A DNA stretch of 39,809 bases from an uncultured Octadecabacter sp. (GTDB lineage: Bacteria > Pseudomonadota > Alphaproteobacteria > Rhodobacterales > Rhodobacteraceae). The position numbers and the translations under genes are program-made. This document shows, one piece after another, positions 14,413 to 39,633 of the stretch (within the stretch, counting starts at the first letter, position 1; each line of letters starts with the position of its first letter). The stretch lies in the NCBI GenBank assembly GCA_937891785.1, contig CALAGN010000129.1, positions 1 to 39,809 of the forward strand. The letters run 5' to 3'. The notes under the pieces were generated by a model. It saw only the letters and a program-made list of their open reading frames with translations, did not search any database and was not told the DNA's origin.

Positions 14413-15579
14413 ATGAGCTTTCAGAACCCAGTGTTTATTCCCGGGCCCACCAACATGCCCGAGGCGATCCGTCAGGCCTGCTATATGCCGACGATCGACC
14501 ACCGTTCGCCGCTTTTTGGCAAAATCCTGCACCCCGTTCTGGATGGTGTGCGCAAGGTTTTGAAATCCAAGGACGCGCATACCTTTGTCTTTCCATCGAC
14601 CGGAACTGGCGGTTGGGAAACAGCGCTGTCCAACTGCCTAAACGCTGGCGACAAGGTTCTGGCCGCACGCAACGGCATGTTCTCGCACCGCTGGATCGAC
14701 ATGTGCCAGCGCCACGGATTGGACGTGCAGGTTGTTGAAACCACTTGGGGTCACGGGTTGCCCGCCGCTGAATACGAAACGATCCTGAAAGCTGACAAGA
14801 ACCACGACATCAAGGTCGTGTTGGCGACACACAACGAAACCGCGACTGGTGTGAAATCCGATATTGCCGCCGTTCGCCGCGCTTTGGGCGCCGCTAACCA
14901 CCCTGCCATGCTGTTTGTTGACGGTGTGTCGTCGATCGGTTCGATGGATTTCCGCATGGACGAATGGGGCGTGGACGTTGCCGTTACGGGGTCGCAAAAA
15001 GGGTTCATGTTGCCCGCAGGGCTGGCCATCGTCGGCTTTTCCGACAAAGCCATGGCCGCGACCGAAACCGCGACCCTGCCGCGCACGTTCTTTGACGTGA
15101 AAGACATGCAAAAGGGATACGACAATAATGCGTTTCCCTACACGCCCCCCGTTGGCCTGATGAACGGGTTGAAACTGGCGCTGGAAATGATCGAGGATGA
15201 GGGTCTTGAGAACGTCTTTGCCCGTCATACCCGCATCGCCACCGGCGTGCGTCACGCGGTTAATGCTTGGGGCCTTGAGCTGTGCGCGGCCTCACCTGAC
15301 GTGTACTCCGATACCGTGTCGGCGATCAAAACTCCCGACGGGTTCAACGCCACTGATATCGTGACTGTCGCCGCTGAAAAGTATGGCATGGCGTTTGGTG
15401 TCGGCCTTGGCGAAGTGGCAGGCAAAGTATTCCGCATCGGCCACCTTGGTAGCCTAACAGACGCGATGATGTTGTCGGGTCTGGGCGTTGCTGAAATGGT
15501 CATGGTCGACCTTGGATTGGACGTGAAATTAGGATCTGGTGTCGCAGCGGCACAAGAATTCTATCGTCACGGTTCCTAG
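14413..15579 (+). CDS. bhcA: L-aspartate--glyoxylate aminotransferase BhcA
   Basis: 388 residues, a class V PLP-dependent aminotransferase of the serine-glyoxylate/alanine-glyoxylate type. It converts glyoxylate to glycine with aspartate as donor in the beta-hydroxyaspartate cycle. The N-terminus VFIPGPTNMPEAIRQACYMP contains the family's PGPT motif. PSTGTGGWETAL at about 61-72 binds the PLP phosphate, the DGVSSIGS segment supplies the ring-binding Asp170, and the Schiff-base lysine is Lys196 in VTGSQKGFMLPAG. A strong AAGGAGA site precedes the ATG. It is the first gene of bhcABCD, divergent from bhcR, with bhcB 19 bases downstream. On its own it could be called a serine-glyoxylate aminotransferase; the gene order settles the call. 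Confidence 0.93.
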   Translation: MSFQNPVFIPGPTNMPEAIRQACYMPTIDHRSPLFGKILHPVLDGVRKVLKSKDAHTFVFPSTGTGGWETALSNCLNAGDKVLAARNGMFSHRWIDMCQRHGLDVQVVETTWGHGLPAAEYETILKADKNHDIKVVLATHNETATGVKSDIAAVRRALGAANHPAMLFVDGVSSIGSMDFRMDEWGVDVAVTGSQKGFMLPAGLAIVGFSDKAMAATETATLPRTFFDVKDMQKGYDNNAFPYTPPVGLMNGLKLALEMIEDEGLENVFARHTRIATGVRHAVNAWGLELCAASPDVYSDTVSAIKTPDGFNATDIVTVAAEKYGMAFGVGLGEVAGKVFRIGHLGSLTDAMMLSGLGVAEMVMVDLGLDVKLGSGVAAAQEFYRHGS

Positions 15580-15598
15580 GCCCGAAGGACTAAAGCAA

Positions 15599-16549
15599 AT
15601 GTATATCCCCACCTATCAGGACATGCTTGAGGCACACGACCGCATCAAGCCATATATCCACCGCACGCCGGTCATGACCTCGGCCTACTTGAACGAGCTG
15701 ACGGGCGCAGAGTTGTTTTTCAAGTGCGAGAACTTTCAGACACCGGGCGCTTTCAAAGTGCGAGGGGCCAGCAATGCGGTGTTCGGCCTAAGTGATGAAA
15801 AGGCCAAACTGGGTGTGGCAACGCATTCGTCCGGCAACCACGCGTCGTGCCTAAGCTATGCAGCCAGCCGCCGTGGTATTCCGTGCAACGTCGTCATGCC
15901 ACGCACGGCCCCGCAGGCCAAGAAAGACACAGTTGCGCGCTATGGCGGGGTAGTCACCGAATGCGAGCCGTCGACCACATCGCGCGAGGAAACATTTGCC
16001 AAAGTGCAGGCTGCAACAGGCGGCGATTTTGTACATCCCTACAACGATCCGCGCGTAATTGCGGGTCAGGGCACCTGCGCGCGCGAATTTATGGAACAGA
16101 CCGACGGGCTAGATATCGTCGTAGCGCCAATCGGTGGTGGCGGGATGATTTCGGGCACCTGCCTGACGCTGTCAAATCAAGCGCCCGAGGTGCAGATCAT
16201 TGCCGCCGAACCAGAACAGGCCGACGATGCATATCGCAGCTTCAAGGCGGGATATATCATCGCCGATGACGCCCCCAAGACCATTGCTGATGGGTTGTTG
16301 GTGCCGCTCAAAGATCTGACTTGGCATTTCGTGTCCAACCACGTGACGGACATCCTCACGGCCTCGGAAGTCGAGATCATCGACGCGATGAAATTGACGT
16401 GGAAGCATCTGAGGATCGTCATGGAAGCCAGCAGCGCAGTGCCGCTCGCGACCATTCTCAAGAATAAAGAACGGTTCGCTGGCAAGCGGGTCGGAATCAT
16501 CATCACTGGCGGGAATGTCGATCTTGACCTTCTGCCTTGGCTCAAGTGA
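15599..16549 (+). CDS. bhcB: beta-Hydroxyaspartate dehydratase BhcB
   Basis: 316 residues, a fold-type II PLP enzyme of the serine racemase/threonine dehydratase group. In the cycle it dehydrates erythro-beta-hydroxyaspartate to iminosuccinate. The PLP lysine is Lys53 in GAFKVRGASNAV. The substrate loop is THSSGNHASCLSYAA, and the Gly-rich phosphate cup is PIGGGGMISG. The C-terminus IIITGGNVDLDLLPWLK is typical. I took the ATG at 15599, with GAAGGA upstream; upstream in-frame codons overlap the bhcA end and are not conserved. It has no C-terminal ACT regulatory domain, so it is not a biosynthetic threonine deaminase. bhcC follows 14 bases later. Confidence 0.93.
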   Translation: MYIPTYQDMLEAHDRIKPYIHRTPVMTSAYLNELTGAELFFKCENFQTPGAFKVRGASNAVFGLSDEKAKLGVATHSSGNHASCLSYAASRRGIPCNVVMPRTAPQAKKDTVARYGGVVTECEPSTTSREETFAKVQAATGGDFVHPYNDPRVIAGQGTCAREFMEQTDGLDIVVAPIGGGGMISGTCLTLSNQAPEVQIIAAEPEQADDAYRSFKAGYIIADDAPKTIADGLLVPLKDLTWHFVSNHVTDILTASEVEIIDAMKLTWKHLRIVMEASSAVPLATILKNKERFAGKRVGIIITGGNVDLDLLPWLK

Positions 16550-16563
16550 AGGAAAACCAAGAC

Positions 16564-17727
16564 ATGAACACGCACCCAAATTTTGAAGACTTCGAAGTCG
16601 GCTATGACATCCCCGCCAAGCCCGGCATGGACGAGGCCGATATCCAAACGCCTTGCCTGATCCTTGATCTGGACGCGCTTGAGCGCAACATCAAGAAGAT
16701 GGGCGATTACGCAAAATCCCATGGGATGCGTCACCGCGTTCACGGCAAGATGCACAAATCTGTTGACGTTGCCCTGCTGCAGGAAACCCTTGGCGGGTCG
16801 TGCGGCGTTTGCTGTCAAAAGGTATCGGAAGCCGAAGTGTTCGCACGTGGCGGCATCAAGGACGTGATGGTATCCAACCAAGTCACCGTACCAGCCAAGA
16901 TCGACCGCTTGGCCCGCATACCCAAGCTGGGCGCACGCGTGTTGTGCTGCGTGGATGATCCCGCCAACGTCGCCGACCTGTCGGCAGCTGCCACAAAGCA
17001 CGGCACACAGATCGAATGTCTGGTCGAGATCGATTGTGGTGCGGGTCGTTGCGGCGTTACCACCACACAGGACGTCATAAACCTCGCCAAGCTGATCGAC
17101 GCGGCAGAAGGCCTCAAGTTTGCGGGCATCCAAGCCTATCAGGGCGCGATGCAGCACCTTGACAGCTACGCTGACCGCGAAGGCAAAACAGCCATCGCAA
17201 TCGGCATGGTCGAAGACGCAATTACTGGTCTGAAATCTGTTGGTCTTGAGTGTGATATCGTTGGCGGTGGCGGCACAGGGTCGTATTACTTCGAAAGCAA
17301 CTCCGGCGCCTTCAACGAACTCCAGTGCGGGTCATATGCCTTCATGGATGCCGACTACGGCCGTATCCTCGACAAAGACGGCAAGCGCATCGACCAGGGA
17401 GAATGGGAGAACGCGTTGTTCATCCTGACCACGGTCATGTCACACGCCAAAGCCGACAAGGCGATCGTTGATGCGGGCCTCAAGGCGCAGTCAGTCGATA
17501 GTGGTTTGCCAACTGTTTATGGCCGCGACGATGTCGAATACGTCAAATGTTCCGACGAACATGGCGTTGTCGCCGACCCGAACGGCGTGCTGAAAGTGAA
17601 CGACACGCTCAAACTGGTTCCCGGTCACTGCGACCCAACCTGCAACGTGCACGACTGGTATGTGGGCGTGCGTAACGGCAAGGTTGAAACCGTTTGGCCT
17701 GTGTCGGCCCGCGGCAAGGCTTACTAA
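16564..17727 (+). CDS. bhcC: beta-Hydroxyaspartate aldolase BhcC
   Basis: 387 residues of the DSD1/D-threonine aldolase family, with an alanine-racemase-like PLP barrel and a C-terminal metal-binding beta domain. It condenses glycine with glyoxylate to erythro-beta-hydroxyaspartate. The barrel starts IQTPCLILDLDALERNI, and the PLP lysine is in RHRVHGKMHKS, probably Lys62. The C-terminal domain has the divalent-metal motif PGHCDPTCNVHDWYV and ends WPVSARGKAY. The ATG at 16564 follows GAAGGA at good spacing. A 102-base gap with a hairpin precedes bhcD. A stand-alone annotation might read D-threonine aldolase; the operon decides for BhcC. Confidence 0.93.
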   Translation: MNTHPNFEDFEVGYDIPAKPGMDEADIQTPCLILDLDALERNIKKMGDYAKSHGMRHRVHGKMHKSVDVALLQETLGGSCGVCCQKVSEAEVFARGGIKDVMVSNQVTVPAKIDRLARIPKLGARVLCCVDDPANVADLSAAATKHGTQIECLVEIDCGAGRCGVTTTQDVINLAKLIDAAEGLKFAGIQAYQGAMQHLDSYADREGKTAIAIGMVEDAITGLKSVGLECDIVGGGGTGSYYFESNSGAFNELQCGSYAFMDADYGRILDKDGKRIDQGEWENALFILTTVMSHAKADKAIVDAGLKAQSVDSGLPTVYGRDDVEYVKCSDEHGVVADPNGVLKVNDTLKLVPGHCDPTCNVHDWYVGVRNGKVETVWPVSARGKAY

Positions 17728-23668: not shown

Positions 23669-25339
23669 TTACCTTCCCAAAATGCCGGGCAAATTCAGCC
23701 CATGTTCGCGTGCGCAGTCCAATGCGTCGTCATATCCCGCATCTGCGTGACGCATCACGCCCGTCGCCGGATCATTCCACAAAACGTTCTTTAAGCGGCG
23801 GTCGGCATCTTCGGAGCCGTCGCAACAAATGACCATGCCAGAGTGCTGGGAAAAGCCCATGCCAACACCGCCGCCGTGATGCAGTGACACCCATGTGGCC
23901 CCACCCGCAACGTTCAGCATCGCGTTCAGCAGCGGCCAATCTGACACCGCGTCCGAGCCGTCCTTCATCGCTTCGGTTTCGCGGTTGGGCGATGCGACAG
24001 ACCCGCTATCCAAATGGTCACGGCCAATCACGACTGGTGCAGACAGTTCACCCGTCCGCACCATTTCGTTGAACGCAAGGCCCAGTTTGTCACGCAGGCC
24101 AAGACCGACCCAGCAAATACGCGCGGGCAGTCCTTGGAACGAAATCCGCTCGCGCGCCATATCCAGCCAGTTGTGCAGATGCGGATCGTCGATCAATTCC
24201 TTCACCTTAGCGTCAGTTTTGTAGATATCTTCGGGGTCACCAGACAACGCGCACCAGCGGAACGGGCCTATGCCACGACAAAACAGCGGGCGGATATAGG
24301 CGGGCACAAATCCGGGGAAAACAAAAGCGTTTTCCAACCCTTCATCCAAGGCCACTTGGCGGATGTTGTTGCCGTAATCAAACGTCGGCACGCCCTGTTT
24401 CCAGAAATCAGCCATCGCTGCCACTTGGATTTTCATCGAAGCACGCGCGGCTTTTTCGACCTCCTTGGGCGCACTTTCCTGTTTCTCGCGCCACTGCGCG
24501 ACACCCCAACCTTGCGGCAGATAACCGTGGATCGGATCGTGTGCGGACGTTTGATCCGTCACCATGTCGGGCCGCACACCGCGTTTGACCAGTTCGGGGA
24601 ACACATCAGCAGCGTTGCCGATCAACGCGACGGACTTTGCCTCGCCTGCCACGGTCCAGCGCTCAATCATCGCCAACGCCTCATCTAGTGAATGGGTCTT
24701 TTCATCCACGTAACGTGTCCGCAGGCGAAAATCAGCGCGGGTTTCGTCACATTCGACAGCCAAACAACAGGCCCCGGCCATGACGGCGGCCAAAGGCTGT
24801 GCGCCACCCATGCCACCCAGACCACCCGTCAGAATCCAGCGACCCGTAAGGTTACCCGCGTAGTGCTGACGTCCGGCCTCCATGAAGGTCTCGTAGGTGC
24901 CTTGCACGATGCCTTGGGTGCCGATGTAGATCCACGATCCGGCGGTCATCTGGCCATACATCGCCAGACCCTTCTTATCGAGTTCGTTAAAGTGATCCCA
25001 TGTCGCCCAATGCGGCACGAGGTTCGAATTGGCAATCAGCACGCGTGGCGCGTCTTTGTGGGTGCTGAACACGCCCACGGGTTTGCCAGATTGAACGAGC
25101 AAGGTTTCCGTTTCCTCAAGGTCCTTCAACGCTGCGACGATGGCATCAAAATCTTCCCAAGTCCGCGCAGCGCGGCCAATGCCGCCATACACAACCAACT
25201 CGTGTGGATTTTCAGCGACGTCTGGGTGTAGGTTGTTCATTAACATCCGCATCGGCGCTTCGGTCAGCCAGCTTTTGCAGGTGATTTCCGTGCCGGTTGG
25301 CGGGAAAACATCGCGGGTGTTGTGGCGGGAGTTGGTCAT
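23669..25339 (-). CDS. hutU: Urocanate hydratase
   Basis: 556 residues, the usual length. It converts urocanate to 4-imidazolone-5-propanoate using tightly bound NAD+ as electrophile. Family landmarks are the start region [20 protein letters not shown], the cofactor region [14 protein letters not shown] and the C-terminal stretch [21 protein letters not shown] chose the ATG at 25339, which overlaps the hutG stop by four bases (ATGA); the frame is open to 25624 but that part is a shadow of hutG. It is the last gene of hutI-hutH-hutG-hutU and catalyses the second step. Confidence 0.96.
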
Positions 25340-26130
25340 GATTTGCCTCCAAAGGGTGGGGCCATGTCGGCCAGTGTCGTCAGGATTTCTGCCAAGTGAG
25401 GGCGCAGGCGTGCGGCCTTGGTTTCGTCGTATGTCCAAGGCGCGGCTTCGTCGTTTAGGTAAGTGAATTGGGCGAGTTCCATCTGGATGGACTGCACGCC
25501 CGCATCGGGTCTTCCGTAATGGCGCGTGGTCCAGCCGCCGCGAAAACGACCATTCATGACAGACGAATACCCGTTCGCAGCAGCGCAGATTGCGTGTGTT
25601 GCTGCCGCGACTTCGGGTGTGCAAGTCTTGCCGTTGTCTGTGCCGATGTTGAAATCGGGCAGGGTGCCGTCAAACAGAAACGGGATGTTTGATCGGATCG
25701 AGTGGCAATCATACAGGATCGCAACGCCGTGCAGATCGCGCACGCGGCTTAGCTCGGCTGCAAGCGCGGCGTGATAGGGCGCATGAAATGCCGCACAAAG
25801 CGCCGCGATATCAGACGGGGGCGTATTCCAGATATCCACCCCATCAAAATCGGTCAGCGGCACCAGCGTCGTGGTGGTCTGTCCGGGATAAAGGCTTGCT
25901 CCCGTAGGGTCGCGGTTGGCGTCGATAACGTAGCGATGGAAATTGGCCCTGACAGTGGTGAGTTCAGGGAGCAATCCGTCATAAAGGCGATCAATATGCC
26001 AGTCGGTGTCGGCCAGTTTGCGTCCATTTTCGTTCAACTTTACCATCACATCGTTGGGTACAAACGTTCCCGTGTGCGGCAACCCCAAAACAATCGGGCT
26101 GGACCCGCGTTTGACAGTTACAGGGATCAC
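25336..26130 (-). CDS. hutG: N-formylglutamate deformylase (HutG type)
   Basis: 264 residues of the FGase family (N-formylglutamate amidohydrolase), which releases glutamate and formate from N-formylglutamate. The start region has [10 protein letters not shown], and a later motif is [10 protein letters not shown], both thought to supply metal ligands; [14 protein letters not shown] and [12 protein letters not shown] complete the family pattern. The presence of hutF in the window supports the five-step pathway through formylglutamate rather than direct formiminoglutamase hydrolysis. Both ends overlap neighbouring hut genes by four bases. An arginase-fold HutG is excluded by the lack of its Asp-rich metal motifs. 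Confidence 0.92.
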
Positions 26131-27668
26131 TGCGCGTGGCCTTTCACGAACGCAGGCAAGTCAACGGCGCGGGTCAGCGCACCGCTGGCGACCAGCTCTG
26201 CCGCGGCTTGGATCGACGGGGCCATATAGCGGTCTTCGGCCAATGTGGGGACGTGGGCGCGCAAAGCCGCCATCGCCGCCCGCAAGGCGGGGCTGGTTTG
26301 CAAGGGCGCGCGAAATTCGATGCCCTGCACGCCGCACATGGCCTCGACGCCCAATATCACATTCAGGTTCGCGTTCATTCGCAGCAAGCGCCGTGCAGCG
26401 TGGGCTGCCATGCTGACGTGGTCTTCTTGGTTGGCAGATGTCGGTGTGCTGTCCGTTACGCAGGGGTTCGCCAGGTGTTTATTTTCGCTCATCAGCGCCG
26501 CAGTGGTGACTTCCGCGATCATCAAACCGGAGTTCAATCCGGGATTGGGTGTCAGGAATGGCGGCAGGTCAAAGCTGAGCGTCGGGTCCACCATCAACGC
26601 CACACGACGCTGCGCAATCGCCCCGATCTCGGACACGGCGACCGCGATTTGGTCAGCGGCGAACCCTACGGGTTCAGCGTGGAAATTACCGCCCGACACA
26701 ATTAAATTATCATCCACCAAGACCAGCGGGTTGTCGGTGACAGCATTCGCCTCGATCTCCAAGGTGCGGGCGGCGAAATTCAGCACGTCCATGGCAGCCC
26801 CCGTGACCTGTGGCTGACAGCGGATGCAATATGGGTCTTGCACACGGGTATCGCCGTCAACGTGGCTTTCGCGAATTTGCGACCCCGCCATCAAGGCACG
26901 TTGCGCGCGCGCCACAGCGATCTGCCCCGCATGGCCGCGCAGGGTGTGGATGGCATCTTGCAATGGCGCCGTGGAGCCCATGATTGCATCGGTGGACAGC
27001 GCGCAGGTCAAAACAGACGTCGCCGCATTCTGCCATGCGCCCCAAAGGCCGACCAAGGCGCAGGCGGTTGAGAACTGTGTTCCGTTGATCAGGGCTAGGC
27101 CCTCTTTGGCACCAAGGATAATCGGCTTTAACCCTGCCTTGGCCAAGGCCTTGGCTGAGGGCATCCGCACGCCGTCAAGCATCGCTTCGCCTTCGCCAAT
27201 CATTGCCGCCGCCATATGCGCCAGCGGGGCCAGATCACCGGATGCACCAACTGATCCCTGGCTTGGGATCACGGGGGTAACGCCTTTGGCCAGCATTGCT
27301 TCGAGACTGTCTACTGTAGTCATGACGACCCCAGACGCTCCGCGCCCAAGCGAGAGAAGTTTCAGCACCATCATCAGGCGGGTTGTGGCAGCATCCAACG
27401 GCTCGCCGACGCCGCAACAGTGGGATAGGATCAGATTGCGTTGCAGGGTAGCCACGTCTTTGGGTGCGATCTTGACGCTTGCCAGTTTGCCAAACCCGGT
27501 GTTGATTCCGTAAACGGCAGCGTCGCCCGCAACGGCTAGCGCGACCAGTGCAGCAGCAGCGTTGATGCCAGCGTACGATGACGGGTCAAGCGTGACAGGT
27601 TTTTGGCCAGACCAAATGTCGTGCAACTGCGCCAAAGTTGCCGCGCCGGGCGTAAGGATAACAGTCAT
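26127..27668 (-). CDS. hutH: Histidine ammonia-lyase
   Basis: 513 residues, normal length. It removes ammonia from L-histidine to give trans-urocanate, the first step of the pathway. The Ala-Ser-Gly triad that cyclises into the MIO cofactor is at 142-144 ([15 protein letters not shown]). [11 protein letters not shown] at about 53-63 carries the catalytic Tyr, and the central helical motif NAVTDNPLV is also intact. The ATG at 27668 overlaps the hutI stop, and the stop overlaps hutG, both by four bases. These overlaps imply coupled translation and fixed proportions of the four enzymes. Phenylalanine or tyrosine ammonia-lyase is unlikely given the hut context. Confidence 0.96.
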
Positions 27669-28855
27669 AGCGACCCCTTGAAGATGCGAGAATGAAGCGG
27701 GTTGAACCCGATACGATAGGAGAGTTCCGCCGGATGGCTGGCGTCCCAGACGTTAAGATCCGCGCGCGCGCCCGCAACAATGCGGCCGCGATCCTGTGCA
27801 CCCAAAGCCTGCGCGGCATGGGCGGTCATGCCCAAAAGCGCCTCAAGCGGGGTCATGCGAAACAAGGTGCAAGCCATGTTCATGGTCAGCAGAGGTGACG
27901 TCAGCGGCGACGAACCGGGGTTGCAATCTGTGGCAAGTGCCATCGGCACGCCATGGTCGCGGAACGCTTGGATGGGCGGGCTTTGGGTCTCGCGCAATGT
28001 GTAGAACGCGCCGGGCAGAATGACGGCAACCGTGCCCGACGCCGCCAGTGCGCTCGCATCCGCGTCCGTGGCATATTCCACATGGTCGGCACTCAGTGCG
28101 CCAAATTTGGCGGCCAATTGCGTGCCGCCAATATTGGACAGTTGCTCTGCATGGAGTTTGACGGGCAATCCCAATTTGATCGCCGCAGCAAACACCCGCG
28201 CGATCTGGGCGGTATCAAAGGCGATCCCTTCGCAGAACCCATCCACCGCATCGACCAGCCCTTCGGCATTCGCAGCACGCAGAGTGGGGATACATACATC
28301 GTCGATATAGGCGTCCGCGTCGGCACACCCCGCAGGCACGGCATGGGCCCCAAGGAAGCTGGTGCGCACGTTAATCGGACGCACTTTCGCGATCTGGCGG
28401 GCCACCCGCAGCATCTTCAACTCGGTCTCGCGGTCCAAGCCGTAGCCGGACTTCACTTCGATCAGCGTGACACCTTCGGAGATCATTGCGTCGACTCGCG
28501 TCAGGGCATCGGCAAGCAGGGCATCCTCGGATGCAGCGCGGGTTGCGGAAACAGTTGACACGATACCACCCCCCGCCTTCGCGACTTGTTCATAGCTGGC
28601 GCCGTTCAGGCGCAGTTCGAATTCGGCCGCGCGGTTGCCGCCGAAAACGACGTGGGTATGACAGTCAATCAATGCTGGTGTTACAAGCCGACCACCAAGG
28701 TCGTGTATTTCAAGGCCGCGGTATGCATCAGGCAAGTCCGACGCCCCTCCGGCCCATGCGATCTTTGCGCCTTCGAGCGCAACCACCCCGTCGCCAATCA
28801 GCCCAAAACTGTCGTCGTTTTGTAACGTTACAAGTTGTGCGTTGGTCAAAAGCAT
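27665..28855 (-). CDS. hutI: Imidazolonepropionase
   Basis: 396 residues from the ATG at 28855. An amidohydrolase-superfamily TIM barrel that opens the imidazolone ring of 4-imidazolone-5-propanoate to N-formimino-L-glutamate, the third step. The metal-binding [10 protein letters not shown] motif is at about 64-73, the ESGYG-type substrate segment appears as [19 protein letters not shown], and [10 protein letters not shown] supplies another metal His. [10 protein letters not shown] near the C-terminus is characteristic. It is the first gene of the minus-strand operon. Its promoter lies in the short gap to the divergent hutF. The upstream frame to 28960 runs through that promoter and is not coding. 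Confidence 0.95.
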
Positions 28856-28892
28856 CGGTATCGGCTCACTTGCTAATAATCTCGATTGATGT

Positions 28893-28921
28893 TTTATGTG
28901 CATACATATTATTTTTGTCAA
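28893..28921 (-). promoter_or_regulatory. hutI promoter
   Basis: On the minus strand TTGACA (28921-28916) and CATAAA (28898-28893) are separated by exactly 17 bases, a good sigma-70 arrangement, with about 38 bases from the -10 box to the hutI ATG. The candidate HutC operator overlaps the -10 box and the spacer. On the plus strand, TATTAT at 28907-28912 could serve as the hutF -10 box. Confidence 0.65.
28895..28908. promoter_or_regulatory. Candidate HutC operator
   Basis: TATGTGCATACATA has perfect TATGT/ACATA arms around a four-base centre. GntR/HutC-type repressors bind symmetric sites with outer GT and AC, as here. It lies between the divergent hut units and overlaps the hutI -10 box, so one bound repressor dimer could silence both. 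Urocanate is the usual inducer of HutC. Confidence 0.6.
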
Positions 28922-28932
28922 GCGAGAGCACG

Positions 28933-30297
28933 ATGCAGACTGTTTGGGCCAAATCCGCATTATTGCCGACAGGCTGGGCGTTAGATGTGCGTGTCGATAT
29001 TGATGACACAGGTCGGATCAGTGCCGTTCAAACCGATACTGCGATGGCAGGTGACAGGCGCGATCTTTTATTGCCCGCCCCCGTGAATGTGCATAGCCAT
29101 GCATTTCAGCGGGCCATGGCTGGTCTGACCGAACGGCGCGGGCCGAATCCAAGCGACAGTTTCTGGACGTGGCGGCAGCTGATGTTCCGGTTCCTTGACC
29201 GGCTGAGCCCTGATCACGTGGAGGCGATTACCGCCTTTGTGCAGATGGAAATGCTTGAAGCCGGATACGCGACCAACGCTGAATTCCACTATCTACACCA
29301 TCAACCAAGCGGCGCGCTTTATGACAGCATTGCCGAGATGTCAGAGAGGATCGCCGCGGCTGCAGCGCAAACTGGAATCGGGCTGTGTCTGCTACCTGTC
29401 CACTATCAGTTTGGCGGATGTGACGGGCGGGATTTGACCGCAGGGCAGATCAGGTTCGGCAATGATCTGGACAGGTTTCAGATGTTGCATGAGGGGGCCG
29501 TCGCAGCGCTCTCGCTGCTACCTGACGACACAGGGCATGGGGCTGCACCGCATTCTTTGCGGGCCGTCAACGTCGAAAACCTCAAATCGTACGGTGCACA
29601 TTTCCCAACTGGTCCGATCCATATGCATTTGGCCGAACAGGCGCCTGAAGTTGACGAAGTGTGCGCCCATTTGGGCGCGCGCCCTGTTGAATGGGCCCTG
29701 GATAACATGGGACTGGATGCACGCTGGTGCCTGATTCATTGCACGCAAATGGCTCCGCGAGAAACTGTCCGGTTGGCGCAGTCGGGGGCCGTCGCCGGGC
29801 TTTGCCCAATTACCGAAAGCAGCCTTGGCGATGGAATTTTCGATGCTGTTCGTTGGACAGACGCAGGGGGCGCAATTGCTGTTGGGTCTGACAGCAACAT
29901 CCGCATCTCGCTGAGCGAGGAGTTGCGCACGCTGGATTATTCGCAACGCCTACGCGACGGCACGCGGGCCGCTTTGGCGTCGTCTGATCACTCGACAGGC
30001 CGACGGATGCTAGAGGGTATTTTACAGGGTGGCGCGCAAGCTGCGCAGCGCAAAACCGGACGGCTCGAAGTTGGGTATTGGGCTGATATGCTAACGCTTG
30101 ATACGGACAATGAACACATGTGGGGTCGGGCCCAAGATACCGCTCTTGACGCTTGGATTTTTGCAGGCGACGACAGGCTAGTGCGCGATGTTTGGTCTGC
30201 GGGTCGTCACATGGTAAAAGGCGGGCAACACATCGCGCGCGCCGACATTATCGCGACCTACAAGCGCACCATTGACGCATTGAAAGACGCCATATGA
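28933..30297 (+). CDS. hutF: Formimidoylglutamate deiminase
   Basis: 454 residues, an amidohydrolase-superfamily enzyme that hydrolyses N-formimino-L-glutamate to N-formyl-L-glutamate and ammonia, the fourth step. The metal-binding pair is His54/His56 in NVHSHAFQRAMAG, followed by the family's FWTWRQLMF segment. Later metal ligands are in PIHMHLAEQ and in GSDSNIRIS, where the Asp binds. The ATG at 28933 follows a purine-rich GAGAG. The stop overlaps hutC (ATGA), so enzyme and repressor are co-translated. The frame is open far upstream, but that part is antisense to hutI. Confidence 0.95.
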   Translation: MQTVWAKSALLPTGWALDVRVDIDDTGRISAVQTDTAMAGDRRDLLLPAPVNVHSHAFQRAMAGLTERRGPNPSDSFWTWRQLMFRFLDRLSPDHVEAITAFVQMEMLEAGYATNAEFHYLHHQPSGALYDSIAEMSERIAAAAAQTGIGLCLLPVHYQFGGCDGRDLTAGQIRFGNDLDRFQMLHEGAVAALSLLPDDTGHGAAPHSLRAVNVENLKSYGAHFPTGPIHMHLAEQAPEVDEVCAHLGARPVEWALDNMGLDARWCLIHCTQMAPRETVRLAQSGAVAGLCPITESSLGDGIFDAVRWTDAGGAIAVGSDSNIRISLSEELRTLDYSQRLRDGTRAALASSDHSTGRRMLEGILQGGAQAAQRKTGRLEVGYWADMLTLDTDNEHMWGRAQDTALDAWIFAGDDRLVRDVWSAGRHMVKGGQHIARADIIATYKRTIDALKDAI

Positions 30298-30995
30298 ACA
30301 CGCACACTTTTCGAAATTGGCAAAGCGTGCAGACCGAAGTGCTGCGCCGCATCCATGCCCGCGAATGGAAGCCTGGCGACCTGATCCCGAACGAGGCAGA
30401 CTTAGCGCTCGAATTTGGCTGCGCGCGCACCACTGTGAACCGCGCGTTGCGCGCAGTGGCTGAGGCCGGCGCGCTGGACCGCCGCCGCAAGGCCGGAACC
30501 CGGGTCGCAACACAACCTGTTGCCAAAGCCACACTCAACATTGCCGTTATTCGCACCGAGATCGAAGATCGGGGCCAAACCTACAGTTATCGGCTGATCA
30601 CGCGGCACGACGCCGTGCCGCCGTTGGCGATCAGCAGTGCAATGGAAACGTCTGCAGGCCGGCCCTTGCTTCATGTTGGTGCGCTGCATTCGGCGGACGG
30701 CACACCCTACGCATTCGAGGATCGGTGGATTGATCCTAACGTGGTTCCTGCCGCTTCGCGCGAGGGTTTTGAAACTGTAAGCGCCAACGAGTGGCTCCTC
30801 AAGCACGCCCCTTATACGCATGGCGAAATATCTTTCGCCGCAACTTCGGCTACCCAAGAAGACGCCGTTCTTCTTCAGTGCCCGGAAGGCAGTGCTTTGT
30901 TTACGATCAATCGCGTCACATGGGATGGCGGGGCGGCAGTGACCAAGGTGCGTTTGCTGTTTCGTCTTGGCCACAGCATGCGCGCGGTCTTGTGA
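30294..30995 (+). CDS. hutC: Histidine utilisation repressor HutC
   Basis: 233 residues of the GntR superfamily, HutC subfamily. The N-terminal winged helix-turn-helix (about 8-75) reads LIPNEADLALEFGCARTTVNRALRAVAEAGALDRRRKAGTRV in family order. The C-terminal UTRA effector domain (about 90-230) contains LLHVGALHSADGTPYAFEDRW, where urocanate binds in characterised members. It overlaps the hutF stop by four bases, so it is probably autoregulated from the shared intergenic operator. It converges with the aldehyde dehydrogenase gene 33 bases downstream. Confidence 0.93.
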   Translation: MNTHTFRNWQSVQTEVLRRIHAREWKPGDLIPNEADLALEFGCARTTVNRALRAVAEAGALDRRRKAGTRVATQPVAKATLNIAVIRTEIEDRGQTYSYRLITRHDAVPPLAISSAMETSAGRPLLHVGALHSADGTPYAFEDRWIDPNVVPAASREGFETVSANEWLLKHAPYTHGEISFAATSATQEDAVLLQCPEGSALFTINRVTWDGGAAVTKVRLLFRLGHSMRAVL

Positions 30996-33562: not shown

Positions 33563-35302
33563 TTAAGCGTTCGCCAAAATCTCGAATACGCGCTCGCGGT
33601 CTGACAGGACGAGCAAAAGGGCCAAGTCGCCCGGCTGCAATTGGTCAAATATCTGCTTTGCGCCGATCGATGGGGAACTGACATGCGAGATGTGTTCGGG
33701 TTTGATGCCTGCCGAAATCGCCGAGGTCTGTATAAGGGCTGGCGTTTCATCCAATGCCCGACCGCGCAAGTAGTCCTCGATTTCTGCGATAACGATCAGG
33801 TCGGGCTTAAACTGCAGCGCCGCGATAGTCGCGTCAGCAGTGCTTTGGTCTGATCTGTCGCCGGGTTGGCTTAGCATCATGAAACGACGTTTGGACGGAA
33901 ACAGCGCCATCGCATCACACACCGCTGAAATAGAGTGGGGGTTGTGAGCAAAATCAACGAAAATTCGCGCGCCATTGTGGTGAAATTCATTAAAGCGGCC
34001 GGGGTTGTTTCGGGCGTCAGAAACAAAACTTGAAAGCCCAAGCCGGATCGCGTCGCATGGTAGGCCAAGCGCGCTACTGGCGCATATCGCTGCAAGCGCG
34101 TTGTGGATGTTGTATTTCGCAGCGCCCGCCAAGGTGATCGGCACATCCGTTACCGCGAGGGTCAATGCCGTGGTGGTGCCATCGAAAAAGATCATCTGAC
34201 CTTGGTCAAGATAAGCACAGGGCTGGCCCAGCTTTTGTGCCTGCAATATCTGAGGTGCGGCCGCATCAAGCGAAAACCACCAAATCGGCGCGGAGACGCT
34301 TGCCGCGCCCTCCACCACGAGCGGATCATCAGCGTTGAGCGCCAACACGCCATCCGGCGCCAAGCCCCGCGCAACCGCAAACTTGGCCCGCGCCAGTTCG
34401 GTTAGTGTGTTCACGCCATATTCACCCAAGTGGTCCTTGGCGACGTTTGTGACGACCGCCACACACGCACGCCGGCATGCAAGTCCACGGCGCAGAATTC
34501 CACCACGCGCCACCTCGAGGCAGGCAATCTGAACCCGCGGATCGCGCAGGACCATCCGAGCGCCCCCTGGGCCAGAATAGTCACCACGATCAAGGACATC
34601 GTCATCGACCTTCACATGATCGGTTGACGTCATACCTGTGACCTTGCCCGCAGCGCGGGCAATAGCAGCGCACAGTCGGGTTGTTGTTGTCTTGCCGTTT
34701 GTTCCAGTGATCAGCGCGAACGGCACATCATGCAGGATCGGCCATGGCACCTGATCCGGTTTTGGCAAACCCGCTATGGGCCACGTCCGAGAGCCGCCCC
34801 CGTGGCCAAGCGAAACCTCGTCATCATCGCACAGGATATCCACATCGTGTGCCGCCGCCGCAGCGATCAACGCGATCAAATCCGGATTTGCCTCTTGCGC
34901 CATGACCGTTTTCAAATCGTTGATTATTTGCTCGAACGGCATATACGCGGCGTCCAAAAGCTCGGCAGCGCAATAGTGCCATGCTGTCTGAGCCACAAAG
35001 ATCGCCGTATAAAGCTGGTCCATCGGCGCGGAGATCGCCAGATTAACGCCCCCTTGAAAGCGACGATGCACGAGGCGTTCATCCGTCCAGCCAAGTGCGT
35101 CCAGTACATGGCGCGCGTGCTTTTCCCACAAAGACGTCAGCGTGCCGGCATCGATATCTTCGAAAAAGACATCAACCACTGCGCCGGGTAGATCCCAAAT
35201 AAGGCCCGGTCCGGTCAATCGGCGAACCGGATCAATACGGATATTGTTGGCCTGCGCCCAGTTGATATCAAGCGCGGTTTCAAGCTGTTCGATACGATCC
35301 AT
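33563..35302 (-). CDS. Mur ligase-like protein related to cyanophycin synthetase, without ATP-grasp
   Basis: About 579 residues. The ATP-binding loop GTNGKTTTTRL is at 200-210, followed by MTSTDHV, MVLRDPRVQIACLEVARGGILRRG, NVAKDHLGEYG and a C-terminal domain with FVDFAHNPHS, the Mur ligase central and C-terminal pattern. These segments closely parallel the Mur-type half of the neighbouring CphA (GMTSTDGV, MVLRDPTIDFAVMETARGGLV, DYGHNPAA). Residues 1-195 are not a Mur N-domain. A short piece (HDVDILCDDDEVSLGHGGGS) recalls the CphA N-domain segment ending SLVQFGHGKYQ. CphA's ATP-grasp module of about 250 residues is missing in between. The ATG at 35302 lies 13 bases after the cphA stop, with AGGG upstream; an ATG at 35335 is an alternative. 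The enzyme may attach an amino acid to cyanophycin or to a related peptide. Confidence 0.8.
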   Translation of the reverse strand: MDRIEQLETALDINWAQANNIRIDPVRRLTGPGLIWDLPGAVVDVFFEDIDAGTLTSLWEKHARHVLDALGWTDERLVHRRFQGGVNLAISAPMDQLYTAIFVAQTAWHYCAAELLDAAYMPFEQIINDLKTVMAQEANPDLIALIAAAAAHDVDILCDDDEVSLGHGGGSRTWPIAGLPKPDQVPWPILHDVPFALITGTNGKTTTTRLCAAIARAAGKVTGMTSTDHVKVDDDVLDRGDYSGPGGARMVLRDPRVQIACLEVARGGILRRGLACRRACVAVVTNVAKDHLGEYGVNTLTELARAKFAVARGLAPDGVLALNADDPLVVEGAASVSAPIWWFSLDAAAPQILQAQKLGQPCAYLDQGQMIFFDGTTTALTLAVTDVPITLAGAAKYNIHNALAAICASSALGLPCDAIRLGLSSFVSDARNNPGRFNEFHHNGARIFVDFAHNPHSISAVCDAMALFPSKRRFMMLSQPGDRSDQSTADATIAALQFKPDLIVIAEIEDYLRGRALDETPALIQTSAISAGIKPEHISHVSSPSIGAKQIFDQLQPGDLALLLVLSDRERVFEILANA

Positions 35303-35315
35303 GTTACTGCCCTGA

Positions 35316-38117
35316 TCAATCGCCGTCTTCGACATCGCCACGGGCCAGTCGCACACCGCGTGCGTCGCGTATCATATTTGAATCGCCGTCGACCATATCT
35401 TCAAATGGAACAGGCGCCTGATTGCCAATCGAAGCCGCAGCAATGTGGCCAGCCTGTTCAGGCACGTTGAAATAGATGATCTGTTTCCAGCAGCGCGGGC
35501 TATTGTCTCCAAAAATGATCACAAGATCACCCTGCTTTGCCATATCAAGGCTTGCTGCCACAGCGTCTTCCTCGTTTGGAATGACCGAGATTTGATCCTC
35601 GGAAATTCCGTTCTTGAGGAACTCAGCCTTGAACATTTGCGGGATTTCGTCGTCGCCGCGCTTGCGCCGATCATCGTCTGCTTTGCAGATATAATGGTCA
35701 AAGTGTCCCGACAGAATGCGCGCGGCATCAGCGACATCGCGGTCGCGGCGGTCGCCAGGTATTGATAGCACAGCGATGCGCTGTCCCTTGACATCAAGTC
35801 GATCGACAAGCCCTGCCATTGCGCCCAAGGCCGCTGGATTATGGCCGTAATCAAGGATCACTTTGAAGGGGTGTTCATCAAACACATTCATCCGGCCCGG
35901 AGCCTGAAAGTAGCTGGTGTCGAAGGTTCGCAGGCCGATGCGGATATTGTCCAGATCAACGTCGAAACTGTATGCCATTGCCGCCGCAAACATGGCGTTC
36001 TGAACGTTGTGCATTGCCTTGCCTTCAAGGGTCGCAGGGATCAGATGTGACCACAAAACGGGCATATGCAAGCCGTTGTCATAGATCGTTAGCATGTCAC
36101 CACTCATGCCCTGTTCCAGCACGATTGCCTTGCCACCTGCTTTGATATGTTCCTTGACCAGCGTGTGACTGGGATTGACCGTCACGTAAAAGATTGAATC
36201 CACTTCGGCGTAGTCGGCCATTTTCAAGCATTCAATATCATCGGCATTCAACACAGCGGTTTGCGTCGCGCTTTCGATGACAACACGTTTGACGACGGCA
36301 AGTTGTTCAACCGTTTCAATGCCCCCCAAACCCAGATGGTCGGCAGATACGTTCAAGCAGGCCGCAACGTCCGAATGCTGAAAGCCAAGTCCGCTACGCA
36401 CCAAACCGCCACGCGCGGTTTCCATAACGGCGAAATCGATTGTGGGGTCACGCAGCACCATTTGCGCGGACTTCGGGCCAGTCATGTCGCCTTTGACGCT
36501 AAGCTTGCCATCGACATAAACGCCGTCGGTCGAGGTCATGCCAACGATCTTGCCGCTGGTCTTCATGATGTGGCCCAGCATCCGCGAGGTCGTTGTTTTA
36601 CCATTCGTGCCGGTGATCGCCGCAATCGGAATCCGACTTTGCTGTCCATGCGGAAATAGCATGTCGATGACATTTCCGGCGACATCACGCGATTGACCTT
36701 CCGAGGGGGCAACATGCATCCGAAAGCCGGGGGCCGCGTTCACTTCGACAATCGCGCCGCCAATGTCCTTGTAGGACTTGGTGATATCGTCGATCAGGAA
36801 ATCGACACCGCCAACATCCAATCCTACAGCCATGATCGCGCGTTCTGCCATGTCGCGGTTATCGGGGTGAACGACGTCCGTGAGGTCGACCGCCGTGCCG
36901 CCAGTTGACAGGTTGGCCGTCGCACGCAGATAGAACACCACCCCCGCATCTAGGACAGTATCGGTGGTGTGACCCGCGTCGGCGATCAGACGTTTCGCCT
37001 GATTGTCGATCTCAAGCATGGTCAGGACTTTTTGATGTCCAATTCCGCGGCGCGGATCCTCGTTGGTGATATCCACAAGGTCTGAAATGCTATGCTTGCC
37101 ATCGCCGATGACATGGCCCGGCACGCGTTTGGCAACCGCGACCAACTTGTTATTCACGACCAGCATCCGGTGATCAAAGCCAGTAATAAAGCTTTCGACC
37201 AGAATGGCCGCACTTTTTGAATGAACCTCGGCCTCGGCAAATCCGGCTTTGACCGCTTCATCCTTTAGCAGATTTATGGAAACGCCGCGACCGTGGTTGG
37301 CATCCAAAGGCTTGACCACAACAGGAAAGCCAATTTTGTGGGCTGCCTGAACTGCCTCTTCGGGGGTGTAGACGATACGCTGCTGCGGGACGGGCAGGCC
37401 AAGATCGTTCAGCAGATTATGCGTGTCTTCCTTGTCGCAGGAAATCTCCACTGCGATATGGCGGGTTTCGGATGTGATGGTGGCCTGAATACGCCGCTGA
37501 TATTTGCCATGCCCGAATTGCACGAGCGATCCTTCGTTCAGCCTTATCCAAGGGATATCGCGGTCTTGGGCGGCAGCCACCAAAGCGCCCGTTGACGGGC
37601 CGAATTCCTTGCGCTGGGCATGCAGGACAAAACTGCGCAATTCGGCCTGCCAATCGAAGGCAGGGTCGAAGTCATATTCGGCCTGACCTTGCAGCGACTT
37701 TGGCAAAAGATGCATCAGCAACCGCAGCGCCAGTTCGCCTGCCGCCAATCCCACATCGCGCTGCCGATAGGCGTAAACCATATTGTATTGCCCATGAACG
37801 CCAGTGCCGCGTGTCCGCCCAAAGGTCACATCGGACCCGGCGACATTTTGCACCTCAATTGCGCAGTGCTCAAGAATGTGGCCCATCCAAGTGCCTTCAT
37901 CTTCGCGCAACCGCCGCAAGAATCCGCCTGTTTCGCGATAAGAGCACCCGTGGTCCGATAGTCCGGGCAAGGCGGCAATCAGTGCTTCAACGAAATCAGA
38001 TCCGATTTTTGCAGAGGGCCAGTCTTCCAATACCCCCAGATCAATGACGTGCCGAATTACAGGAAAACCCGCCCAGACGTTTGGGCCGACAAAAACATTG
38101 GATGAGACTATTTTCAA
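35316..38117 (-). CDS. cphA: Cyanophycin synthetase
   Basis: 933 residues. It polymerises aspartate and arginine into cyanophycin, using two ATP sites. The N-domain (about 1-215) includes GTWMGHILEHCAIEVQNVAG and FGHGKYQRRIQAT. The ATP-grasp domain (about 225-485; KEDTHNLLNDLGLPVP, VVKPLDANHGRGVS, EVNAAPGFRMH) adds aspartate. The Mur ligase domain (about 495-890) has GTNGKTTTSRM at 503-513 and adds arginine. The length exceeds that of typical enzymes slightly, through a C-terminal tail of about 45 residues rich in Asp and Arg. It lies 45 bases after cphB. The Mur ligase-like paralogue follows 13 bases later. The order cphB-cphA-paralogue suggests one operon. Confidence 0.96.
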   Translation of the reverse strand: MKIVSSNVFVGPNVWAGFPVIRHVIDLGVLEDWPSAKIGSDFVEALIAALPGLSDHGCSYRETGGFLRRLREDEGTWMGHILEHCAIEVQNVAGSDVTFGRTRGTGVHGQYNMVYAYRQRDVGLAAGELALRLLMHLLPKSLQGQAEYDFDPAFDWQAELRSFVLHAQRKEFGPSTGALVAAAQDRDIPWIRLNEGSLVQFGHGKYQRRIQATITSETRHIAVEISCDKEDTHNLLNDLGLPVPQQRIVYTPEEAVQAAHKIGFPVVVKPLDANHGRGVSINLLKDEAVKAGFAEAEVHSKSAAILVESFITGFDHRMLVVNNKLVAVAKRVPGHVIGDGKHSISDLVDITNEDPRRGIGHQKVLTMLEIDNQAKRLIADAGHTTDTVLDAGVVFYLRATANLSTGGTAVDLTDVVHPDNRDMAERAIMAVGLDVGGVDFLIDDITKSYKDIGGAIVEVNAAPGFRMHVAPSEGQSRDVAGNVIDMLFPHGQQSRIPIAAITGTNGKTTTSRMLGHIMKTSGKIVGMTSTDGVYVDGKLSVKGDMTGPKSAQMVLRDPTIDFAVMETARGGLVRSGLGFQHSDVAACLNVSADHLGLGGIETVEQLAVVKRVVIESATQTAVLNADDIECLKMADYAEVDSIFYVTVNPSHTLVKEHIKAGGKAIVLEQGMSGDMLTIYDNGLHMPVLWSHLIPATLEGKAMHNVQNAMFAAAMAYSFDVDLDNIRIGLRTFDTSYFQAPGRMNVFDEHPFKVILDYGHNPAALGAMAGLVDRLDVKGQRIAVLSIPGDRRDRDVADAARILSGHFDHYICKADDDRRKRGDDEIPQMFKAEFLKNGISEDQISVIPNEEDAVAASLDMAKQGDLVIIFGDNSPRCWKQIIYFNVPEQAGHIAAASIGNQAPVPFEDMVDGDSNMIRDARGVRLARGDVEDGD

Positions 38118-38162: not shown

Positions 38163-39026
38163 CTAGACGCTTGTGACTGGCAAAGCGCAAAGCGCCAAAT
38201 GCGCGTCCGGCGGATAAGCAACGCGTGCCTTAAGATCATATCGACAGCCTTCGCCCAAGACGTCAAGTCGCAAGCCCAAAAGGCTGAGCGCCTCGCCCGG
38301 CTTGGCGTCCCACATTGACGAGTGGGTCACCTTGCTGGCGTCGACAACAGTAACCGTGCCGCTCCCGACCACTTCCAACACGTCGTTGGGATCAATGAAG
38401 GCGGCGGTGTCTTCGTCAATACCAAGGCCGATCAGAAACGGATTGAAGGATGATGCAGTTAGCAGGCGACCCAACCGATTTCGCTGGGTGAAGTGTTGAT
38501 CAATAATGACGGCGTTCGTCAGCCCGATACCCGGTGACAGCGTAACTGCACCTTCGGCCGGGGATTCGTTGCCTTGGCCACCAGCGACCATGTGTTCTGA
38601 CATGATGGACGCCCCCGCAGAGGTGCCCGCGACGGGAACACCGGCAGCGTTTTGCCGCCTGATCTTGGTCACTAGCAGTGTCCCGCCCAAAATGGCCGAC
38701 AGACGCAGCTGATTTCCACCCGTGATGAAGATACCGGTGGCACTATCCAGCATCTGCGCAAATTCGGGGTTCTCGCAATCCGAGCGGCGCGTAATGGGAA
38801 GGAAATCAACCTTGCCGGCACCCAGACTAGAGAAGATGCGATTGTAGTCTTCGCCAGTTTCATCAAGCATCGAGGCTGTCGGGATTACAACGATATAGGC
38901 ATCCGCGCCACCCGAAAGCTCGACGAACTTGCGGTGAATTTTCATTTCCTTAACACGGTCCTCGCCACCGCCGATCGGTATAATAAATCCGCGATCGTTT
39001 CCTTTGGCCGGTGATGCTGGGCACAT
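38163..39026 (-). CDS. cphB: Cyanophycinase
   Basis: 287 residues from the ATG at 39026. A serine-type exopeptidase of the S51 family that releases beta-Asp-Arg dipeptides from cyanophycin. Nucleophile Ser136 is in VAGTSAGASIMS, the early motif is FIIPIGGGEDR, and a family segment is IFITGGNQLRLSAIL. The substrate-site stretch SPGIGLTNAVIIDQHFTQRNRLGRL contains the catalytic His-bearing region, ending DQHFTQRNRLGRLL. The ATG at 39026 follows AAAGGA; an upstream TTG at 39065 would add 13 residues without homology. It is the first gene of the cyanophycin unit and lies downstream of a palindromic candidate operator. Confidence 0.94.
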   Translation of the reverse strand: MCPASPAKGNDRGFIIPIGGGEDRVKEMKIHRKFVELSGGADAYIVVIPTASMLDETGEDYNRIFSSLGAGKVDFLPITRRSDCENPEFAQMLDSATGIFITGGNQLRLSAILGGTLLVTKIRRQNAAGVPVAGTSAGASIMSEHMVAGGQGNESPAEGAVTLSPGIGLTNAVIIDQHFTQRNRLGRLLTASSFNPFLIGLGIDEDTAAFIDPNDVLEVVGSGTVTVVDASKVTHSSMWDAKPGEALSLLGLRLDVLGEGCRYDLKARVAYPPDAHLALCALPVTSV

Positions 39027-39165
39027 ATTGTTTTGAAGTCCTTTGACTGCCTTAGCGCGGGCCAAGATTGGCGACCCATCCAGTTGATTTTATGGCGTCC
39101 AAGCGCCAGACATACCACGCCAAATGCGAGATAACATCTAAAGTCGAGAATTTTCGTCTAGAAAG

Positions 39166-39240: not shown

Positions 39241-39633
39241 TCAACCAATGCGGATCAGCAGGGTAAGCACATCCGAGCGGTGCACCAGCCCGATGACTTT
39301 CGCCCCATCAAGGACCGGAAAGACACGGTGGGGGCACGATAGAAACTTTTCGGCAACGCTCACAACGTCGTCATTCTTGTCGACGCAGATCACGTTGCGT
39401 GACATCTGATCGGCAACACTGCCCATCCACTCTTGATAGTAACTCGCCTTAAGAGCGTGCTGAAAACAGTCCTTTTGGGTTAAGAGACCAACAAGACCGC
39501 CATCGTCGCCGATAACAATAGCAGCGGCGGCGCGCGCTTGGACCAGCTCTGTGACTGCGCGCCGGATTGGCATTTCGGGTGTCAGAGTCGGGACGTCGTC
39601 GCGAACGATTTCGGCAACTCGGTATTGCGTCAT
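39241..39633 (-). CDS. Two-CBS-domain protein
   Basis: 130 residues made almost entirely of a CBS pair. CBS1 (about 3-60) contains VPTLTPEMPIRRAVTELVQ and GLVGLLTQKDC. CBS2 (about 72-128) contains VICVDKNDDVVSVAEKFL and KVIGLVHRSDVLTLL. Such stand-alone pairs bind adenine nucleotides and sense energy state, acting on a partner protein. A GGAGG ribosome site precedes the ATG, which overlaps the stop of the upstream Cys protein by four bases (ATGA), so the pair is coupled. The partner is unknown. It ends 31 bases before the cphB control region. Confidence 0.88.
   Translation of the reverse strand: MTQYRVAEIVRDDVPTLTPEMPIRRAVTELVQARAAAAIVIGDDGGLVGLLTQKDCFQHALKASYYQEWMGSVADQMSRNVICVDKNDDVVSVAEKFLSCPHRVFPVLDGAKVIGLVHRSDVLTLLIRIG

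Follow-up and report, generated by a model that had tools for sequence, protein, structure and literature searches.

Gene X, the third gene of a cyanophycin operon in an uncultured Octadecabacter sp., was confirmed to encode a cyanophycin synthetase (CphA)-family enzyme whose CphA-type Mur (M) domain is intact and which lacks an ATP-grasp (G) domain. It is a partner gene of the cyanophycin operon, adjoining and co-inherited with cphA and cphB. The operon lies on the minus strand of the window, i.e., the whole stretch of 39,809 nucleotides that was analysed, and comprises:

38163..39065, minus strand: cphB, cyanophycinase, given as its longest ORF (TIGR02069, 256 bits vs. a cut-off of 126.6)
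35316..38117, minus strand: cphA, complete partner cyanophycin synthetase of 933 aa, with a zinc motif-containing N domain, G, and M
33563..35302, minus strand: X, the third operon gene, for a Mur-only CphA-family ligase of 579 aa, based on the ORF, Pfam domains, and orthologues

The X reading frame extends from an ATG at 35302 to a stop codon ending at 33563, beginning 13 nt past the cphA stop; a longer GTG-started frame (35356) overlaps cphA, and the aligned orthologues support the start at ~35302. Homology of cphB to most of its orthologues begins at about residue 14, and its true start may lie at ~39026.

The original prediction described the product of this gene as a Mur-type ligase whose own catalytic half parallels CphA, and the domain searches agree with that description. 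The only Pfam domains of X are Mur_ligase_M and Mur_ligase_C, and no ATP-grasp family was recognized by Pfam in any of the 12 members scanned. While the CphA of the window scores 1123 bits against the cyanophycin synthetase model TIGR02068 (cut-off 850), X scores 349 bits, under the cut-off, and matches profile positions 478-857 only. The cut-offs of both MurE models are missed (91 bits vs. a cut-off of 373 and 79 vs. 257), and the solved structures closest to X by sequence are CphA M domains. The Mur half of X shares 35% identity with the M domain of the window’s own CphA and 41% with that of a stand-alone CphA. The NCBI product name is “Mur ligase family protein” and nothing more.

Three elements were located in the Mur half:

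34685..34705, minus strand: P-loop GTNGKTT of the Mur site, residues 200-206, with Lys204 in 33/33 orthologues
34484..34516, minus strand: motif ExARGGxxRxG, residues 263-273, including the Mg-binding Glu263, in 33/33 X and 0/7 MurE
33758..33784, minus strand: loop E-x-x-x-Y-L-R-G-R, residues 507-515, aligned with the MurE DNPR motif

The first of these places the ATP loop at residue 200, where it had been predicted. Residue counts refer to 33 aligned X orthologues unless a smaller set is given. The M-site residues described for TeCphA1 include Lys499, Thr500, Thr522, Glu558, Arg731, and His748 (PMC9427784), which correspond to K204, T205, T227, E263, R436, and H453 of X, and the pair Asp585/His586 reported for the SuCphA1 M site (PMC9262961) corresponds to D290/H291. 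K204, E263, R436, H453, D290, H291, and K307 are invariant in all 33 orthologues, the T227 position is T or S in all 33, and the T205 position is T or S in the 28 sequences counted. K307 lines up with the lysine that is carbamylated in Mur ligases. D482 and R483 are present in 32 of 33, the remaining member having Asn and His, respectively. Thus, the ATP, magnesium, and catalytic positions that were checked are kept. The ExARGGxxRxG motif is also found in 27/28 partner CphAs and 33/37 other CphAs, and we read it as a putative acceptor-side feature of the CphA family.

A short CphA-like N-terminal stretch had been proposed to precede the P-loop. It proved to be real but diverged, and it ends at what is probably a deletion scar:

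34889..35263, minus strand: predicted CphA-like N domain, residues 14-138, from structural similarity to CphA N domains; zinc peptidase motif absent
34787..34945, minus strand: remnant of the G-domain start, residues 120-172, equivalent to CphA 153-208, by hhalign and a shuffle control
34727..34786, minus strand: linker at the probable deletion scar, residues 173-192, by alignment; CphA has ~285 ATP-grasp residues here

The CphA N-domain family PF18921 gave no match in any of 12 X members scanned, and the HxxEH zinc motif of that domain, which is present in 83% of CphA1s (PMC9262961), occurs in 0/33 X sequences. By profile comparison, residues 120-172 match CphA 153-208 (hhalign, probability 80%, E 1.4e-5), and a 33-sequence profile covering residues 16-195 attains 43.0 with CphA 1-232, a value reached by none of 300 column shuffles of CphA 1-232 (maximum 21.8). 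Residues 16-122 taken alone are marginal by profile, the real score being reached in 2/300 shuffles.

The fold of residues 1-195 was predicted with a single-sequence AlphaFold2 model (mean pLDDT 60, pTM 0.55), in which residues 3-40 fall below pLDDT 50 and only two of five models came near 60; in a model of full-length X, the same residues are at pLDDT ~30. Structural alignment of the 1-195 model to 999 of the 1000 top-ranked Foldseek chains returned cyanophycin synthetases as all of the best ten PDB entries (Z 7.6-9.7), led by TeCphA1 (Z 9.7, rmsd 2.9 over 116 residues, X 14-138 on chain residues 1-162) and followed by SuCphA1, CphA2, and the CphA1 of T. morbirosei. The first match of another kind, a viral RNA polymerase subunit, has Z 7.0; Z values under 8 may reflect just a common arrangement of secondary structure, and seven cyanophycin synthetase rows reach at least 8.1. 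Foldseek alone ranked its best CphA second, at E 0.014 and below a designed protein, with no match at E ≤0.001. At moderate model confidence, residues 14-138 are predicted to be a CphA N-domain fold whose sequence has diverged, and an unrelated N-terminal domain was rejected on the strength of the fold match. About 46 CphA residues within the matched span have no partner in the model, and the order of helices and strands suggests that the loop and helix of the zinc site were deleted.

Because X retains the N domain together with the beginning of G, while its P-loop begins at residue 200 rather than at residue 503 as in CphA, the intervening ATP-grasp residues appear to have been skipped. The absent stretch corresponds to CphA residues ~210-493, and these ~285 G-domain residues were probably deleted from X. 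The absence of ATP-grasp that had been claimed therefore stands, although its extent is slightly larger than the ~250 residues first estimated.

The distribution of X was established by searches with residues 1-195, which found it in 9/295 genomes of the family, and with a 12-row alignment, which found full-length X in 22/390 genomes of the order; 13 further genomes of the order sample carry other CphAs only. X is also found in 4/385 genomes of the class, 3/299 of the phylum, and 6/247 from the order of a genome belonging to another class, so that the hosts of the cphB-cphA-X operon are found among the alphaproteobacteria and in one or more further classes. These samples overlap, and the distinct genomes with X number 31; Ruegeria and Shinella plasmids carry it as well. 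The orthologue of the marine roseobacter Ruegeria sp. THAF33 is WP_152460471.1. A search of genome contigs for relatives of X returned one distant Mur protein from Lachnospiraceae, while viral contigs contained no relative and no phage record covered 80% of the query.

In each of the 28 extracted loci, from 26 genomes and two plasmid records, cphB, cphA, and X follow one another in that order on the same strand, and cphA and X either overlap or are separated by a short gap. In 31/31 genomes X adjoins cphA, as determined directly for 26 and from neighbouring M-domain matches for five, and none of these 31 has an X without a neighbouring cphA. Thus, the orthologues found all reside in cyanophycin clusters (28 loci, and five more beside a CphA), in keeping with the operon membership originally claimed. 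The association also holds from the side of CphA. Every CphA at least 58% identical to that of the window (28/28) has X beside it and retains the zinc motif; three of these loci (G252, Ruegeria, and Shinella) were found via X itself and could not have counted against the pairing. None of the loci of the other 55 CphA-like rows contains X, and the nearest unpaired CphAs (L148 and L161) are 53% identical to that of the window and are without the zinc motif. One genome (G372; L133 and L135) has both a paired cphB-cphA-X and, on another contig, an unpaired CphA that is 39% identical to the window’s. The distances of X and CphA are correlated (Mantel r 0.967, p 0.0001), much of which shared ancestry alone would yield. 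X evolves ~2.1 times as fast as CphA, as judged by the distance ratio, and some X are only ~41% identical to the X of the window.

A gene for an IadA-like protein (beta-aspartyl dipeptidase) lies upstream in 12/28 loci (e.g., L047:3100-4266 and L052:10729-11895), and in the four loci with positions given it directly precedes cphB, in the order iadA-cphB-cphA-X. Three such genes were scored against TIGR01975: two are above its cut-off, and the third (L048, 137 aa) is fragmentary. In the genome of the window, no protein scores above the IadA cut-off or matches PF01112; its two PF24827 proteins are encoded away from the operon. Just upstream of cphB, at 39241-39633 on the minus strand, is a gene for a small protein with two CBS domains, whose family occurs in fewer than four of the 28 X loci. 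Near the operon are a histidine utilisation cluster (23669-30995; hutU, hutH, hutF, and hutC) that includes a HutI-like amidohydrolase (27665-28960), and the genes for BhcA and BhcC of the beta-hydroxyaspartate cycle (14413-17727).

The origin of X was addressed with an M-domain tree of 84 rows, from which seven CphA rows without a recognised P-loop had been dropped and for which two of five Mur outgroups tried were usable. The 28 X sequences are monophyletic (SH-aLRT 100), with a long stem, and fall outside the group containing their partner CphAs, and a single clade of X plus partner CphAs is mildly rejected (p-AU 0.024, for a group chosen after seeing the tree). The position of this clade and the p-AU value argue that X probably branched off long ago and travels with this CphA clade, rather than being a recent duplicate of the adjoining gene. 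The claim that X is a CphA paralogue that lost ATP-grasp therefore survives as to family, with the zinc motif lost as well, but not as a simple recent duplicate of the adjoining cphA; this candidate was rejected, on moderate evidence given the long branches, from the 35% M-domain identity, the separate clade, and the p-AU value. CphA is considered to have arisen via fusion of ATP-grasp and Mur domains (PMC11915815). An ancestral Mur-only form predating that fusion was also rejected, since the remnant of the start of G and the N domain in X favour later loss of ATP-grasp over its never having been present.

The DNPR motif of MurE reads the incoming amino acid, as established in structural work on that enzyme. 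The loop preceding RGR in CphA aligns with DNPR, and by this analogy we infer that it selects the amino acid in CphA. The RGR of the loop is kept in 33/33 X. Upstream of it, an acidic residue at -4 is found in 28/28 partner CphAs and 31/34 others (three of the 37 other CphAs, without RxR, were left out of the loop counts), and an acid anywhere from -4 to -1 is found in all of both sets (28/28 and 34/34). In X, the corresponding counts are 17/33 and 25/33, and the X of the window has two such acids (E509 and D510). Conversely, Leu at -1 is present in 33/33 X and 1/62 CphAs, and Tyr at -2 in 30/33 X and 0/62 CphAs. In addition, GDRR is changed to GDRS in 30/33 X. The residue differences in the loop suggest that its constraint differs in X, which makes an incoming amino acid other than arginine plausible. 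A stronger version of this argument, that the acid before RGR was lost in all X, was rejected, as loss is true of only 8/33 and the X of the window is not among them; this lowers the odds of a non-arginine substrate. What the sequences show is the architecture of X, its conserved catalytic residues, its pairing with CphA, and the difference in the loop; we infer the activity, the acceptor, and a non-arginine amino acid, and regard the last as about evenly balanced.

The preferred reading, held at somewhat short of an even chance, is that X is a dedicated Mur-only ligase that acts in trans, alongside CphA, on a chain resembling cyanophycin. In the mechanism envisaged, X would have derived from a cyanophycin synthetase via loss of the ATP-grasp module and the N-domain zinc site. 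CphA would extend the aspartate backbone with G and add arginine with M, and X, from the same operon as CphB and CphA, would bind the chain that CphA makes, phosphorylate the side-chain carboxylate of an aspartate residue using ATP, and join an incoming amino acid, perhaps not arginine, through its amino group to the activated aspartate. This would yield a polymer or oligomer resembling cyanophycin, in which a side chain of a second kind is borne along the chain or caps its end, and CphB, plus the dipeptidase where present, would degrade it again. The more specific proposal, that Proteobacteria with cphB-cphA-X make a hetero-cyanophycin whose second side-chain amino acid is added by a stand-alone Mur ligase, is a tentative and rather doubtful one. 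The retained RGR and the acid within four residues before it in 25/33 X, including that of the window, count against a non-arginine substrate. The preferred reading is also weakened by the helices of charged residues with which CphA anchors cyanophycin, whose conservation in X looks poor by eye, by the one member that departs at D482 and R483, and by the M site that the partner CphA retains, as ordinary cyanophycin does not require a second one.

The same evidence bears on the somewhat unlikely alternative that X adds arginine as the CphA M domain does, filling unmodified aspartates or speeding the slower step of CphA. Its catalytic residues and RGR, the frequent acid just before RGR, and the strict pairing across the loci seen are all consistent with this role, while the intact M site of CphA, the free variation in X of a -4 acid that is nearly invariant in CphAs, and the replacement of other residues by Tyr-Leu argue against it. 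Action on small substrates, in which X would make or recycle beta-aspartyl dipeptides or CphA primers, for example by forming beta-Asp-X from Asp and another amino acid or by coupling to dipeptides freed by CphB and IadA, appears improbable. The upstream cphB and the iadA-like gene of 12/28 loci, one of them a fragment, would suit such a function, as would the report that (beta-Asp-Arg)-Asp is a minimal CphA1 primer (PMC9262961), but the zinc motif, which enables CphA1 to generate its own primers, is retained in each of the 28 partner CphAs, so that a primer maker is not obviously needed.

A mainly structural or regulatory role, with X as a CphA subunit of little catalytic activity, would accommodate both the strict pairing in the loci seen and the faster evolution of X; it is nevertheless very unlikely, given that catalytic residues needless for a non-catalytic subunit are invariant, or T/S, in 33 X. 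Finally, the bare NCBI name would be compatible with an origin in an unrelated peptide or cell-wall pathway, X merely adjoining cphA. This is contradicted by the presence of cphA beside X in 31/31 genomes and sits poorly with the CphA-family motif, the CphA N-domain fold, and the failure to reach MurE cut-offs, making it hardly credible.

Should the preferred reading of X as a ligase acting in trans with CphA hold, it would modify the standing view that cyanophycin is made by one enzyme and has one main side chain, and a hetero-cyanophycin made by two enzymes would be a previously undescribed natural cyanophycin. The finding that X never occurs without CphA in the genomes seen, and accompanies all of the CphAs seen of one clade, suggests that this bacterial group needs another ligase. 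X and CphA would be a natural source of enzyme pairs for making polymers of novel composition, and X, as a natural M-only enzyme, would allow the arginine-adding half of CphA to be studied apart from the aspartate-adding half. No description of X was found in the full-text literature searched on it, although Fuser and Steinbuchel (2007), who sorted cyanophycin ligases into groups (cited in PMC3646047), could mention such proteins. The accessible part of a survey of cphA clusters makes no mention of X (PMC10206079).

Comparison with known systems places X among several rearranged relatives. With MurE it shares the Mur fold and chemistry and a loop at the same place, but no MurNAc-binding N domain was found in it, and it has the CphA ExARGG motif and no DNPR. 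Shortened CphAs that adjoin a CphA, as X does, occur in tandem pairs (L153-L157 and L165-L171) composed of a CphA-like protein of 718-760 aa and a CphA of 854-1069 aa, the latter mostly without the zinc motif. The shortened member, which we take to be the CphA-prime of cphA'-cphA, is complementary to X, having an N domain with the zinc motif and no Mur P-loop recognised in five scanned; the pairs may represent a complementary division of labour.

An N domain joined to M without ATP-grasp was observed elsewhere, on a Legionella adelaidensis plasmid (L045:5323-7191), where the gene adjoins a cyanophycinase and an isoaspartyl peptidase, and on plasmid 3 of Deinococcus deserti (L044:7023-9197). 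The two proteins share with X the CphA N domain joined to M and the lack of ATP-grasp, but their N domain is recognisable by BLAST, with the zinc motif present in that of Legionella, no full cphA lies in the stretch seen, and they occupy separate places in the M-domain tree.

The active site that works in cyanobacterial CphA2 is the ATP-grasp site. CphA2 (PDB 7TA5, 8FXH) repolymerises beta-Asp-Arg with one active site (PMC10206079), and it resembles X in being a reduced CphA and in having an N domain among the ten best fold matches. It differs in the direction of the reduction, as the original prediction had stated: X keeps the M site only and has no G domain, so that CphA has been reduced both ways, to the G-only CphA2 and the M-only X. 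With CphA1 (TIGR02068; PDB 7LG5, 7WAC, 7LGN, 7LGM), X shares the N-domain fold, the start of the G domain, the operon with cphB, and the M-domain ATP, Mg, and catalytic residues checked; it differs in being without G and the N-domain zinc motif and in having another loop before RGR. By analogy, the mode of action of X is expected to be that of the M half of CphA1.
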